Shown: positions 8,215 through 16,616 of the stretch, piece after piece
Layout: every line of letters begins with the position of its first letter
Position numbering within the stretch: position 1 is the first letter of the stretch
DNA from: Pseudobdellovibrionaceae bacterium
GTDB taxonomy: Bacteria; Bdellovibrionota; Bdellovibrionia; Bdellovibrionales; Bdellovibrionaceae
Assembly: GCA_019637875.1 (NCBI GenBank)
Contig: JAHBUW010000001.1
Span: 62,001 to 126,000, forward strand
Reading direction: 5' to 3'
Length of the DNA: 64,000 bases
Position numbers and translations under genes: made by a program
Notes under the pieces: model-generated
The model's database searches: none
Seen by the model: the letters and a program-made list of their open reading frames with translations, nothing else
What the model was told of the DNA's origin: nothing

Positions 8215-8517
8215 CTACGCGGACCTGAGTTTCACGTCGTAATGAAATCCTTCTTTGAGCAAAGAGTCGCGCAGGGCTAGCTCGATGAGGCCCGTTTCAG
8301 GCAGGCCGAGTTTTTTGGCGATGCGTGAGGCTCGAGTGGGGGAAGGAATCCGCCGACCTTTTTCGAGGTCATTCAAATTCTGTACGGAGAGACCGATCTT
8401 TTTGGCGAAAGCGGTTTGGCTCAGCTCTTCTCCTTCGCGCCAAGCCCTCAAGAGGCCGCCAAAGGTCAAAGCGCCGTGCTGTTTTTCCAGCTTTTCGAAG
8501 TATGATTTAGTACTCAT
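8215..8517 (-). CDS. HigA-like antitoxin, XRE-type HTH
   Basis: A 100-residue protein with a Cro/CI-type helix-turn-helix at about 30-75: ELSQTAFAKKIGLSVQNLND followed by LEKGRRIPSPTRASRIAKKL. It overlaps the end of the RelE-like gene by 11 bases, and the order toxin then antitoxin is that of higBA-type modules. It probably neutralises the toxin and represses the operon through the palindrome at 8801-8821. A direct test of toxicity is not possible from sequence. Confidence 0.8.
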   Translation of the reverse strand: MSTKSYFEKLEKQHGALTFGGLLRAWREGEELSQTAFAKKIGLSVQNLNDLEKGRRIPSPTRASRIAKKLGLPETGLIELALRDSLLKEGFHYDVKLRSA

Positions 8518-8788
8518 GTTTGTTCACCTCTAAGAGTTCGATGTGCACGTGGTCCTCGATCACGCGGTAGAACAGTCGGTACGATCTGTTCATACGAACT
8601 GATCTTTCGCCGCGACGTTCGCCCCTCAGTGGTTCGTCGTGAAATCCGGGGGATTTCATGACTTCGGCCAAACCTTTCGATTCCACCAAGAAAACCCAGA
8701 AAACCACTTTCTTCCGGATGAGGTCCGGTGCCTTCTTCAGTTGCTTTTCGAAGATTCTGCTCCTCGAAATTTTTGTGAGGACTTTCAT
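8507..8788 (-). CDS. RelE/HigB-like toxin
   Basis: A 93-residue basic protein of the RelE/ParE fold. KQLKKAPDLIRKKVVFWVF forms the helical hairpin, GFHDEPLRGERRGERSVRMN and SYRLFYRVIEDHVHIELLEV form the central sheet of ribosome-dependent mRNA endonucleases. Arginines in RGERRGERSVR and SYRLFYR are likely catalytic or RNA-binding. CAGGAGGTGGG precedes the ATG. It is first in the two-gene module with the HTH antitoxin. Confidence 0.8.
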   Translation of the reverse strand: MKVLTKISRSRIFEKQLKKAPDLIRKKVVFWVFLVESKGLAEVMKSPGFHDEPLRGERRGERSVRMNRSYRLFYRVIEDHVHIELLEVNKHEY

Positions 8789-11234: not shown

Positions 11235-11249
11235 CGATAAGATTCTTGG

Positions 11250-11280
11250 CGATCCGGTCGATGGGCCGGATCGTCTTTTT
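11250..11280 (+). terminator. Rho-independent terminator
   Basis: CGATCCGG at 11250-11257 pairs perfectly with CCGGATCG at 11266-11273 around an eight-base loop and is followed by TCTTTTT. It ends the TetR-SRPBCC-GST-SRPBCC operon and separates it from the motor-like operon. Confidence 0.8.
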
Positions 11281-11452: not shown

Positions 11453-13099
11453 ATGAGCTTAAACTATCAGAAAAAGAAAGATTCCGATGATCACGGCAGT
11501 CTATGGACGTCGTACTCGGATCTATTCATGGGGCTCTCGTTCGTCTTTCTGCTTTTGTACGTGACCGCCAGTCTGCGCGCGGGCACCAGCGGAATTCAGC
11601 AGCAAATCATGGCCCGCAAAGTGGCGATGGAAAACGAAGATCTGAAGAATCAGCTCAAAGTCTACGATGCGCTGAAGAAGGACTACCTCGAAACCGACGC
11701 CTCGGCGGATGAAGCGAAGATGTACGAAGATCTGATGGGAAAATTGGATCTGCTGCAAGATGAAGCGAAGACCGAGAAAGAAAAACTGCTGCAGGCCTCG
11801 AAAGAAAACGCCCAGAAGGAAGTGGCGCTCAACAAATACCAGCAGATGATCCGCAACGTGATCAATTCGAACGCGGTCGCGAAAGCGCGCATCAAAAAGC
11901 GGAACGTGATCATCGACGCCCAGGACGAAGAGATCCTCGAGCAAGGGGCACAGATCGAAGATTTGGAAAGTTCGGTGGCGGAAAAGCGCAATCAAATTGC
12001 CGCGCGTGAAAAACAAATCGAAGACATGAACGCGTCGCTGACCGAGCGCATGAACGACCTGAAGAAAGCCTTCGCCCAGAATAAACTCACCGAGAAAAAG
12101 TACCAAGAGCAGCTGAAAAATGCCAAAGCCGCGCACGCCAAACGTATGGGTGAGCTAGCCAACCAGCAGAAGGCCGCCGAGCAGCAGCTGTCCGCGATGA
12201 ACGCGCAGCTCGAACAAACCGAAGGTCTGTTGGGCCAAGCCGAAGGGAAAAACCGCGCCTTGGCGTCGCAACTTGAAGGGGAGCGCGGGGCGTTCGAAGC
12301 GAAAGTGGCCCAGATGCAGGGAGAGTTCGCAGCCCAGCAGGGGCGCGATCGCGCGGCCTTCGAAGCCGAGCTCGGAAAAGAAAAGCTGAACGCCCAAGGC
12401 CGCGCGGCCAAAGAAGCCGCCTACCGGGCGGGGGTCGCCAAGAAAGAGCGTGAGCTGGCCGACAAGATCGCGGGTTTGAAGAACGAACTCATCGGCACCT
12501 CGGCGGAGCTCGCGAAGGCGAAAGCCGAAATCGACGCGCGCAAGAACGTCGCGAAACAGATGAAGGATGCCTTTGCGAAAGCGGGCGTGAAGGCCGAGAT
12601 CGACGGCGTGACGGGCGACGTGACCCTCGACTTCGGCGACAACTATTTCGATACCGGGCAGGCCGACATCAAACCCGAAATGGCGCAGATCCTGCGCAAG
12701 GCCTTCCCGGTCTACGCGAAATCCCTCATGGAGAACAAGAACCTGAGCGGCAAGATCGAGTCCGTCGAGATCGTCGGTTTCGCCTCGCCCACCTACCAGG
12801 GACGGGTCATCGATCCGCGAAGCATGAAGCCCGAGGACCGCAAAGCTGCCGAATATAACATGGATTTGAGTTACCAGCGCGCGCGCTCGATTTACCAGTT
12901 CGTCTTCAACCAAGAGAAGATGCAATTCGGTCACCAGAAGGACGTCCGCAACCTCGTGAAGGTTTCGGGGAAGAGTTTCTTCGAGGCGAACAAAGTCGAT
13001 CGCAACGTGGCTTCCGAGAGCGTCGGGAGCTTCTGCAAAAAGTACGACTGCAAAAAGTCACAAAGAGTTTTGATCAAGTTTAATGTGAATCCGAAGTAA
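11453..13099 (+). CDS. MotB-like OmpA-family protein with long coiled coil
   Basis: About 548 residues. A short N-terminus leads to one membrane helix, WTSYSDLFMGLSFVFLLLYV, whose Asp (about residue 23) sits where MotB/ZorB carry their proton-binding Asp. A charged coiled coil of some 320 residues (about 50-370) follows, then a C-terminal OmpA/MotB peptidoglycan-binding domain (about 395-548) with LDFGDNYFDTG, VEIVGFASPTYQG and YNMDLSYQRARSIYQ. A CKKYDC cysteine pair lies near the end. The start at 11453 follows AGGAG. It is 12 bases before the MotA-like gene, so the two should form an ion-driven stator-like complex with peptidoglycan anchoring. Confidence 0.8.
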   Translation: MSLNYQKKKDSDDHGSLWTSYSDLFMGLSFVFLLLYVTASLRAGTSGIQQQIMARKVAMENEDLKNQLKVYDALKKDYLETDASADEAKMYEDLMGKLDLLQDEAKTEKEKLLQASKENAQKEVALNKYQQMIRNVINSNAVAKARIKKRNVIIDAQDEEILEQGAQIEDLESSVAEKRNQIAAREKQIEDMNASLTERMNDLKKAFAQNKLTEKKYQEQLKNAKAAHAKRMGELANQQKAAEQQLSAMNAQLEQTEGLLGQAEGKNRALASQLEGERGAFEAKVAQMQGEFAAQQGRDRAAFEAELGKEKLNAQGRAAKEAAYRAGVAKKERELADKIAGLKNELIGTSAELAKAKAEIDARKNVAKQMKDAFAKAGVKAEIDGVTGDVTLDFGDNYFDTGQADIKPEMAQILRKAFPVYAKSLMENKNLSGKIESVEIVGFASPTYQGRVIDPRSMKPEDRKAAEYNMDLSYQRARSIYQFVFNQEKMQFGHQKDVRNLVKVSGKSFFEANKVDRNVASESVGSFCKKYDCKKSQRVLIKFNVNPK

Positions 13100-13111
13100 A
13101 CGAGGTGTTTT

Positions 13112-14071
13112 ATGTTCTCTGAGATGGTTACGAATCTCATGAAAAGCGGCATTCTGACCTTCGCGGTCGAAATGCTTCTGCCGCTGATGGTGCTGACGTT
13201 CGTCGTCGGTTCCGTCGCGCGCATCCTGGTGTGGTACACGGTCAGCCGTCATGCTTGGTTCGCGAAAGAATTCGAGAAACGGGTCAACAAATTCATCGAG
13301 TCCGAGCAGCCGGGCGACGTGAAAAACGTCTCGTTCTACGCGCTGACGAAACAGCAGCTCGAGAAAGCCTTCTACGAGGCCTTCGAGATCCGCGATCGGA
13401 TGCATCGTCGTAAGGGCGATAAGATCATGATCGCCGCCGACCGCATCTATTTGGTTAAGCAGGGCTGCGCGTGGCTGGTCCGGGATATCCTGAAACAGGT
13501 GAAGTTCCTGAAATGGCACGACAACAACCCGAAGCTGATCAACATCACGAAGGCGACATTTCAGCAGAACCCCTGCTTCAACCGTCTGTTCGGTTTCATC
13601 CCGGTGGGTAGCCTGAACGACGTTTTGAGCATTCTTCCCGGTATGTTCGTCATCGGCGGGATCTTCGGAACGTTCATGGGGATCGTGAACGGTCTGCCGA
13701 AACTCGGCGGTATGGACATCAACGACGCCGAAATGTCGAAGCAGATCATGGACGGTTTCCTGTTCGAAGTCTCGTTCGCGATGAACAGCTCGATCATGGG
13801 GATCTTCCTGTCCGTTCTGATGACGTTCCTGAACACGATTTTCTCTCCGGACAAGGTGTTCTCGAATATGGTCGATCGCTTCGAAAACTCGCTCGATCTT
13901 TTGTGGTACCGCAGCGATAACAACGACTATCCCCGCGACGTCGAAGCTTTCGACGAGCACCGCGATCCGGCCGAAGCGCTGGCGAGTGAGTCGCTCAACC
14001 GCGAAATTTCGAAAGGCGCGCGAAGTCGCGATTTGGATGATCTCAAGACCCGGAAGACCAAAGCCTCGTAG
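13112..14071 (+). CDS. MotA/TolQ/ExbB/ZorA-like proton channel
   Basis: A 319-residue inner-membrane protein: a first helix at about 14-44, a large cytoplasmic loop (45-180), and the paired helices that define the family, VLSILPGMFVIGGIFGTFMG and SFAMNSSIMGIFLSVLMTFL. The GxxGTxxG motif and the polar SFAMNSS face are those of ion-conducting stator subunits. A short charged C-terminus follows. It lies between the MotB-like and FHA genes at 12 and 7 bases, so all three are one operon. It is probably a pentameric ring around two MotB-like subunits, by analogy with MotAB and ZorAB. Confidence 0.8.
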   Translation: MFSEMVTNLMKSGILTFAVEMLLPLMVLTFVVGSVARILVWYTVSRHAWFAKEFEKRVNKFIESEQPGDVKNVSFYALTKQQLEKAFYEAFEIRDRMHRRKGDKIMIAADRIYLVKQGCAWLVRDILKQVKFLKWHDNNPKLINITKATFQQNPCFNRLFGFIPVGSLNDVLSILPGMFVIGGIFGTFMGIVNGLPKLGGMDINDAEMSKQIMDGFLFEVSFAMNSSIMGIFLSVLMTFLNTIFSPDKVFSNMVDRFENSLDLLWYRSDNNDYPRDVEAFDEHRDPAEALASESLNREISKGARSRDLDDLKTRKTKAS

Positions 14072-14078
14072 GACCTGA

Positions 14079-16616
14079 ATGTCGAAGTTCCAGACCGTTT
14101 GCCTTATTCAAACCGGTGTCGCCGAAGAGGTGAGCTCTCGTATTTACGAGAGCTTTCCTATTTCTATCGGTCGCTCCAGCGAGACGGCGATCGGAATCGC
14201 GGATCCCGGCATCAGCCGGATGCATGCGGAACTTCGCCTGAAGAAAGGGCAAATCTGGGTCGTCGACATGGGATCGGCGAACGGCACTTTCGTGAACGGG
14301 GAGCGGATCGAAGCGCAGACGCCGGTGTTGTGCAATCCCGACGATCTGATCGAGCTGGGTACGCATCGTATCCCGCTCCGTCTACAGGTTTTCGAGAAGG
14401 CTTTTGAACGCAAACAAATCGCGGATGCGAACATTTCAAGCGAAGAGAAGAACCGCATCCTTGGCCTACTGGATGCCGCCCATGCGGAAATCAAACGCAT
14501 CGGGGAGGTCTTCCAGGCGAATCAGGCGCAAGCCCAAGCGCTGACGGAAGAAAAGATCGCCAATCAATTACGAGAGGCGCAAGAGAAGGCCGACGAAATC
14601 ATCCGCTCGGCACAACTGGACAGCGAAAATATCCGTCAGGTGGCGCGCGCGCAGCATGACTCCGTGGTCGGCGCGGCGGCGGGGGATGCGCAGGCGACCG
14701 TTGACCAAATGATTCGCGAGGCGACGGAGCAATCCGAAATGATCGCCAACAGCATCATCGACCAAGGCGAGGCGAAGCTGGCGGCCATCACCGAAGCCCG
14801 TCGCCAGGAATTTGAAACCATGATGAGCGAAGGCCGCGCGCAACTGGCGGAGTTACGTCGCCAGGACGAGGAGCGCGCGGAACAAGCGGCCCTCATCGCC
14901 GCCGAAGAAATCGAAGCGCGTCGGACCGAGATCCTGCGCGTCGCCGAAGAAAAGGCCACGGCGACTCTCGGTGCCGCGGTCGCGGAATCCGAGCGCGTGA
15001 AATCGCAAACCGAAGCCATTTACCAAGCCGAAGTCGATCGCGGGATGCGCGTCGTGGCCGAGCATAAGCTACGCACCGAAGAGGAGATGTCCGCCCGGGT
15101 CGAGCAATCGCAGGTCATGCTCAAGAATGCGGTCGAGAAGTCCGCCGAGCTCATCGGCAATGCCGAGCGAACCTCGAAGGCTCAGCTCGAAGACGCCGAA
15201 ATGAAGTCGACCGCGATGCTGAAGGTCTCGCGTGAGGATTCGACGCGGCTTTTGGAGAAAACACAGAAAGAGATTCTTGAGCAGTTCAGCGTTCACCAGA
15301 ACGATATGCAGCGACTGCGTCAGCAGACCGAGGCAGACCTTGAAGAAACCACGGCCAACTTGAAATCTTTGAAAGAGGCCGTCGACATCGTGACCTCGGA
15401 GCTGACAGAGCTTGAAGAGAAACTTGGAAGCACGCGCGAAGCGCTACAACGGACGACGGCTTCGCTGACCGCCAAAGAGTCCGAAGAAGTCGCCATCGAC
15501 AAGAAACGGGCCGCGGCCGAAAAGCAGGTGGGCGATCTCGAAGCACGTCGGGAAAAGCTGAGCGCGGAGTTCGCCGAACTTCAGAAGCGCCACGGCGATG
15601 TGGCGGCGGTCATCAATTCTAAACAGGAAGAGTGGGACGCGAAGCAGGCCCGCTTGGAAGCAGAATTCGCGCAGCAGCAAGCTAAAACGCGGGACGAGGT
15701 CGCGGCCTACCGCGAACGCGAGATGGGCATCGTCGACAAGCTGAAACTGGAAGAGCTCGAAGCCCTGGCCGTCACTCGGAGTGAAGAGGCGGCGAAGATC
15801 GACAATCACCGGGCCGAAGTCGTTTCCGAGCTTCTGAAAGTCACCGAGGGGCACTTCCTGGCGAAGTTGCGCCCCGTGCTCCCGAGCTCGTTTGACTGGC
15901 GTACGGTTTCGGATCCGCTGCACGCCGAGATGAAGGATGAGCTGGAACGCTTGGTTTACGACATTTCCCGTCGTGAGCGTGCGCCCGTGGAAGAAGTTCA
16001 GCTGACGGCGAATCAGCAGCGCCTCTTGAAGCGTACGAAGCAAACCGGTCTGGCGGTGGGTCTGGCTTTGGTTTTACTACTGCTGATTCCGGGAACGCGC
16101 GGGATTTTGCTCGATGCGGTTGGCCTGGGATCGGGTGCATCGGCGGCCGACAAATACGCGCACGAGATGCAGGTCGAACGCGAGCGCCGCTGGCAGCCCG
16201 AAAAAACGCGTGCGTGGAAAGAGTCCTACACCGACTCGGTCCTGTTCACGGAAGGTTACGTGCAGATGAAGCTCGACTCCCAAAGCCAAGAGAAGTGGAT
16301 TCGTGAGCTGCACTCTTATCTTTACGGCAAGTTACGGGTCGACGAAGACTCGATCATCAAGATCGTTTCGCTCGAAGCGGCCCTGATCGCGAATCTTAAC
16401 GAGCAAGCGGGGCAAATTCACCCCGATTACGTGGCGGAAAAGACGGCCCGCATGCGCGAAACCGAAGCCGAAGCCCTCGTCGAGATCAAGAAGCTGCTGG
16501 GCAAAGAGCGAAACGTCGAAAAGTTCCAGAAGTTCTCGCAAGATTACTACTACAACGAATACTTGCTGCGTCTGCCCGCGAACGAAACGCCGGAATCGCC
16601 GCCAGAGTCGCCGTGA
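14079..16616 (+). CDS. FHA-domain coiled-coil membrane protein
   Basis: An 845-residue protein. An N-terminal FHA domain (about 20-105) shows the phospho-threonine-binding core: [15 protein letters not shown] and [13 protein letters not shown] long charged coiled coil follows (about 120-640), then a membrane helix at about 655-672 ([17 protein letters not shown]), and about 170 residues beyond it, including [16 protein letters not shown]. The FHA domain should face the cytoplasm and the tail the periplasm. It starts 7 bases after the channel gene and is probably part of the same machine, maybe sensing a Ser/Thr kinase. I do not know a characterised protein of this architecture. Confidence 0.75.

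Follow-up and report, generated by a model that had tools for sequence, protein, structure and literature searches.

What kind of envelope machine is encoded where genes for a MotB-like and a MotA-like protein are directly followed by a gene for a large FHA-domain protein? This question was raised by a locus within a 64-kb stretch of DNA (64,000 nucleotides), which is referred to as the window; positions are those of the window, and all features discussed are located on its plus strand. A preliminary description had proposed that the locus could specify an ion-driven envelope machine with an FHA partner, gated by Ser/Thr phosphorylation.

Three tightly spaced genes in a conserved order

The three genes are located on one strand in an operon-like arrangement at 11453-13099, 13112-14071 and 14079-16616; 12 bp separate the first two and 7 bp the last two. 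All three open reading frames, as well as their tight spacing, were recovered as originally described, namely a MotB-like gene, a MotA-like gene and a gene for a protein with an FHA domain, a coil, a transmembrane (TM) helix and a periplasmic part. A terminator-like hairpin (11248-11275; 12 pairs followed by TTTTT) separates the operon from an upstream AHSA1-family gene, but a pattern scan gave no more such sites than shuffled sequence and the hairpin is therefore suggestive only. A DUF2200 gene starts 31 bp downstream of the operon. A search of six genomes for a sigma-28-like promoter in front of the operon gave none, and the neighbours beyond the trio were conserved within genera only. The gene order B subunit, A subunit, third gene was retained in most of the 32 loci from relatives that were re-examined. 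Likewise, of 80 loci taken from a scan across 84,980 species, 72 had the FHA gene downstream and the B-subunit gene upstream (once with a contig end instead). Since this order is retained across the loci of relatives, the arrangement of the trio is not due to chance.

The motor subunits resemble ZorA and ZorB

The first gene encodes a B subunit of 548 amino acids (11453-13099) with a membrane helix, WTSYSDLF..FLLLYV, that contains Asp23 (11519-11521). This residue, a candidate ion-carrying membrane aspartate, was invariant in 44 homologues and is placed equivalently to D24 of ZorB, where D24/D21 is the critical membrane aspartate (PMC11890865). Between the membrane helix and the C-terminal peptidoglycan-binding domain lie about 330 residues of helical coil. 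In an AlphaFold2 model based on 44 sequences, which is of modest confidence (mean pLDDT 72), the periplasmic coil at residues 85-376 (11705-12580) consists of long helices with breaks at about 209-213 and 310-313; owing to these breaks, the coil could probably double back inside the periplasm. A fold search with the model gave no significant match, returning generic coils and helical hairpins only. The OmpA-like domain (12584-13087) retains a conserved NxxLSxxRA motif, carries GFASPT in place of GHTD, and has an invariant Cys528/Cys533 pair; its match to the Pfam OmpA model (4e-4) was below the cut-off.

The second gene encodes a channel subunit of 319 amino acids (13112-14071) with a TolQ/ExbB-like GIFGTFMGI helix. 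Its pore-lining helices (13670-13792) carry Thr187, within GTF, and Ser227, both in invariant alignment columns, as would be expected for a Ser/Thr ring of the kind present in ZorAB (PMC11890865). Past the last TM helix the chain continues for about 75 residues, and the long cytoplasmic tail of the ZorA type is absent. The C-terminal KAS (14060-14068) is part of a common ending, with 111 of 121 distinct homologues finishing in [AVSGT][AS].

The preliminary description had filed these two proteins as MotA/MotB-like. Profile and structure comparisons assign them to ZorA and ZorB instead: the B subunit was best matched by PADLOC ZorB1 (5.9e-30) and the B chains of PDB entries 8VVI and 8QYD, and the channel subunit by PADLOC ZorA1 (1.4e-7) and 8VVN (7.7e-8), the best PDB matches for the motor subunits thus being the ZorAB cryo-EM structures 8VVN, 8VVI and 8QYD/8QYH. 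The NCBIfam ZorA models also matched the channel subunit, far below their cut-offs. Among Pfam models, the motor genes matched only OmpA and, weakly and below the cut-off, MotA_ExbB (0.01); no model of the MotB plug or N-terminus was matched. In a phylogenetic tree, 45 family members formed one group (support 94/88). The genome's own flagellar-type MotA paralogues (L152/L153) and TolQ/ExbB-like proteins fell outside this group, and a ZorA-like sequence was placed on a long branch near it.

The third protein spans the membrane and carries an FHA domain

The third gene (14079-16616) encodes a bitopic coiled-coil protein of 845 amino acids. Its FHA domain (14160-14360; Pfam 9e-18, residues 28-94) has intact ligand residues GR, SRxH and NGT, which by a strict pattern are also intact in 76 of 90 distinct FHA matches. 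Judged from sequence, it is followed by a cytoplasmic coiled coil of about 545 residues (about 110-655; 14406-16043). This coil is poorly conserved, showing 16-23% identity to the window protein, and the distance from the FHA domain to the periplasmic profile ranged from 206 to 1378 residues in 80 homologues (median 610). A single TM helix at about residues 660-678 (16056-16112) comes after KRTK, and this positive N-side indicates that the FHA domain is inside and the C-terminus outside. The periplasmic stretch of about 165 residues contains an all-helical domain (16146-16586) that was predicted with a pLDDT of mostly 95-98; it had no family match, and a fold search against the PDB and viral libraries returned nothing significant.

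Loci of the Bacteriovoracaceae type depart from this pattern. In six of them (L121, L131, L206, L216, L218 and L220) the FHA domain is degenerate, with SRxH and NGT gone, and Bacteriovorax BSW11_IV (L114) lacks it, while the coil and the periplasmic domain persist. Phospho-binding is thus not required in every lineage. Gating by Ser/Thr phosphorylation, as originally suggested, is therefore plausible for this family, but not universal. Within the 64-kb window there is no kinase gene; two clear kinase genes are located elsewhere in the genome.

The trio is a co-inherited unit

A scan of contigs with the single protein gave no relative, whereas an alignment-based scan did. Among 60 related genomes, the channel gene was present in 36 and the periplasmic domain of the third protein, as detected by its profile, in 34, and all 34 of these genomes carried the motor (p = 9e-15 by a Fisher test that ignores shared ancestry and is descriptive only). 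The motor occurred without the domain in two genomes (G047 and G052) and the domain without the motor in none of the 60. Widespread occurrence of the FHA gene without the motor, which would have spoken against the proposed partnership, was thus not observed. In one genome (G051), a second copy of the periplasmic domain sits away from the motor. The trio is a genuine co-inherited unit. Of the preliminary interpretation, a co-inherited FHA partner was supported, as was a probable ion-driven envelope motor.

Of 291 genomes sampled from the Bdellovibrionota, the phylum of the predator Bdellovibrio, 139 had some form of the channel; the genome of the window itself belongs to the Bdellovibrio family. 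Family members in records named Streptomyces griseus, Actinomycetota and Thioalkalivibrio (L085, L078 and L096) most likely represent contamination. Two contaminated bins carry phylum assignments, and a search of 299 and 198 genomes of these phyla yielded only contaminant contigs and distant matches (1e-8 to 1e-10, mostly to much longer open reading frames). The motor family is mostly single copy, its tree largely tracks families, and no member was found in plasmids. The best reading of this pattern is vertical inheritance of the operon.

This distribution also bears on the idea that the trio is a variant of the anti-phage system Zorya, in which the ZorAB-like motor would sense envelope damage and the FHA protein would relay this to an effector. 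ZorA and ZorB are indeed the closest known proteins, and the ZorAB mechanism employs both peptidoglycan binding and a cytoplasmic rod (PMC11890865). However, a PADLOC scan of ten neighbours revealed no ZorC/ZorD, ZorE or other effector gene, no nuclease gene is nearby, and the neighbours are ordinary. Moreover, since the family is mostly single-copy, is present in roughly half the genomes sampled from a single phylum, has a tree that largely tracks families and was not found in plasmids, its distribution is unlike that of patchy defence islands. We therefore consider a defence function improbable.

A channel tail motif accompanies the third gene

Three architectures were distinguished, namely B-A-FHA, B-A alone (for example L061, L062 and L184-L190), and B-A with a cyclic-nucleotide-binding protein of 146-156 residues (L195-L197, L199 and L200). 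In these last five loci the cyclic-nucleotide-binding gene starts 0-15 bp downstream in the FHA gene's stead, and the three proteins scanned among the five matched Pfam cNMP_binding at 1e-15 to 1e-18. In the tree, the latter two architectures formed a moderately supported group (90/91), L117 excepted.

The cytoplasmic tail of the channel subunit carries the motif FDEHRDPAEALAS (13949-13987). In the form F[DN]E[HN]RDPxEALA, this motif was carried by about 90 of the 95 three-gene loci and by 1 of the 18 with two genes (p = 7e-15, again from a descriptive Fisher test that ignores shared ancestry). For this count, a strict pattern was tried first and then relaxed, the loci with cyclic-nucleotide-binding genes were pooled with the two-gene class, and L126 was moved by eye into the three-gene class as its FHA domain had been missed by the script. 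The one exception is L117, which has the motif but no third gene. Because the motif accompanies the third gene and is nearly absent from two-gene loci, it is a candidate docking site, and this correlation suggests that the third protein may bind the channel tail there. The motif has no conserved Thr or Ser and is therefore not itself the FHA ligand, which must lie elsewhere.

An attack-phase lead in Bdellovibrio bacteriovorus

In the genome that we take to be that of B. bacteriovorus HD100, the seventh gene past the FHA gene encodes a YkuD protein (L,D-transpeptidase). We take this YkuD gene to be Bd1176, which acts in the remodelling of prey peptidoglycan and presumably encodes an L,D-transpeptidase. 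Counting genes back from Bd1176, rather than from an annotated record, the HD100 operon is probably located at about Bd1167-Bd1169, with Bd1167 as one of its coiled-coil genes. A further genome, presumably from the epibiotic predator B. exovorus JSS, lacked the trio; being one genome, it provides no evidence for a link with periplasmic invasion.

Bd1167 has been reported as a coiled-coil 'crescentin-like' gene whose expression falls when cells pass from attack phase into prey (PMC2797640). In B. bacteriovorus, the operon would thus probably encode an attack-phase machine. In its main text, the published Tn-seq study mentions none of the genes in the Bd116x range.

The description of Bd1167 as crescentin-like (PMC2797640) invites the view that the third protein is a cell-organising scaffold, whose long coil and FHA domain would position the motor or other proteins at the pole or along the cell, motor activity being secondary or regulatory. 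The length, length variability and poor conservation of the coil would fit such a role. Yet the two motor subunits have invariant pore residues, and wherever the partner is present it retains its periplasmic domain, which makes a mere scaffold rather unlikely.

Proposed mechanism

The explanation that we favour, with a rough probability of 0.6 for the whole, is a vertically inherited ion motor of the ZorAB class that is tethered to peptidoglycan and works with a separate, docking FHA rod protein under phospho-control. By homology, two MotB-like subunits would have their membrane helices enclosed by five MotA-like subunits, and residue conservation suggests that ions may pass Asp23 of the MotB-like and the Thr187/Ser227 ring of the MotA-like subunits. 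The OmpA domain would tether the MotB-like subunit to peptidoglycan via its long, probably folded-back coil. While ZorA has its own rod, here the cytoplasmic rod would be supplied by the separate bitopic FHA protein, which may dock on the motor, probably at the FDEHRDPxEALA motif in the tail of the MotA-like subunit. If the FHA domain binds a phospho-threonine ligand, Ser/Thr phosphorylation could set partner engagement, position or motor output. The periplasmic domain of the FHA protein might transmit force or conformation to the envelope, or read it.

A more far-reaching reading is that the trio represents a new family of peptidoglycan-anchored motors, so far known only from the Bdellovibrionota, of which the output is coupled to interchangeable second-messenger readers (an FHA domain for phospho-threonine, a cyclic-nucleotide-binding domain or none, depending on the branch), and which would serve predators in attack phase as a signal-switched envelope motor. 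This we regard as a tentative possibility. In any case, with this locus the 5:2 ion-motor core gains one more user, from a phylum noted for periplasmic predators. The locus also offers a natural experiment, as one motor occurs alone, combined with an FHA protein or combined with a cyclic-nucleotide-binding protein. Should the partner set motor output, this would illustrate a way of connecting such motors to signalling inside the cell.

Comparison with known systems

No description of the trio as a system, or of an FHA-associated 5:2 motor of this form, was found in the open-access literature, nor did this literature yield an experiment on a homologue. The ZorAB motor of Zorya is similar in its membrane aspartate at the same place, its Ser/Thr ring and its OmpA-type peptidoglycan-binding domain. 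In contrast to ZorAB, the trio lacks the long cytoplasmic ZorA tail and its B subunit has about 300 extra coil residues. It differs from Zorya also in the lack of ZorC/D/E, in the extra FHA/coil/TM partner and in a vertical, core-like distribution. Membership of the Zorya class was rejected because the channel tail and the effector genes are missing.

The Agl-Glt gliding machine of Myxococcus shows that an FHA partner is not unique to the trio, contrary to the earlier statement that known relatives carry none: in this machine, the bitopic FHA protein GltG binds to the channel subunit AglR (PMC3169522). Both systems thus combine a MotA/TolQ/ExbB channel with a bitopic FHA partner in one conserved complex (PMC3169522), and in the trio, too, the FHA-TM partner is encoded together with the channel genes. 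Conceivably, the trio could serve as a second motor for gliding or motility, comparable to Agl-Glt; the FHA protein would then correspond to GltG, which has an FHA domain, a TM helix and a periplasmic domain (PMC3169522). The probable attack-phase expression would agree with this, as would the match of the NCBIfam GltG model (1.2e-10, far below the cut-off), but this match is confined to the FHA end of the third protein. Furthermore, Agl-Glt has two ExbD/TolR subunits and GltG ends in a TonB-like C-terminus, whereas the trio has one OmpA-type B subunit with a peptidoglycan-binding domain and an unrelated helical periplasmic domain; Pfam and NCBIfam profiles gave no TonB or ExbD match in its proteins, and the operon has no TPR genes of the GltD/E type. 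Because of the TonB-like end of GltG and the ExbD/TolR subunits of its motor, the trio is not an Agl-Glt member, and a gliding function seems unlikely.

Flagellar MotAB stators share the 5:2 motor class, the membrane aspartate and the OmpA domain, but the trio differs from them by the missing match to a MotB plug model, its separate clade and its extra partner. In TolQR and ExbBD, the B subunit is of the ExbD/TolR type, while that of the trio matches OmpA and ZorB. DgcB of Bdellovibrio, an FHA-GGDEF protein with phosphopeptide reading by its FHA domain (PMC6733907), is an FHA reader of the same organism group, but a soluble enzyme without a motor. Taken together, the trio is best read, from its sequence relationships, as a ZorAB-like variant of the 5:2 ion-motor kind with what appears to be an exchangeable cytoplasmic signalling partner.

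Genomic context of the trio

The trio of motor pair and FHA-domain protein was absent from three genomes, G002, G031 and G146, all of them complete and single-contig; its presence is possibly linked to lifestyle. Three loci with motor gene homologues (L078, L085 and L096) reside on Bdellovibrionota-like contigs in assemblies labelled as Actinomycetota, Streptomyces griseus and Thioalkalivibrio; these contigs are probably binning contamination. In related genome G051, the periplasmic domain of the third protein occurs a second time (C10:18908-19495, frame of 550 residues), on a contig other than that of the motor genes. On the minus strand of the window (8215-8788), a helix-turn-helix gene adjoins a ParE/YoeB-like gene, and together they probably constitute a toxin-antitoxin pair.

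C-terminal signature of the channel subunit

The channel subunit, in the window (14060-14068) and in homologues from loci L031-L223, carries a C-terminal signature: 111 of the 121 distinct homologues terminate in [AVSGT][AS]-COOH, as compared with 41/665 other long ORFs, none of 123 B subunits and none of 90 third proteins. The cyclic-nucleotide-binding proteins encoded directly 3′ of the motor pair in variant loci (L195:7197-7658, L196:7863-8327, L197:8047-8517, L199:7079-7519 and L200:7356-7823) also end in KAS or KAA. Since two further MotA-type proteins from the window's own genome (L152 and L153) terminate in ERAA and KKAA, the signature may be common to MotA-class proteins there. As judged from its sequence, the channel-subunit C-terminus resembles a ClpXP-type C-terminal degron.
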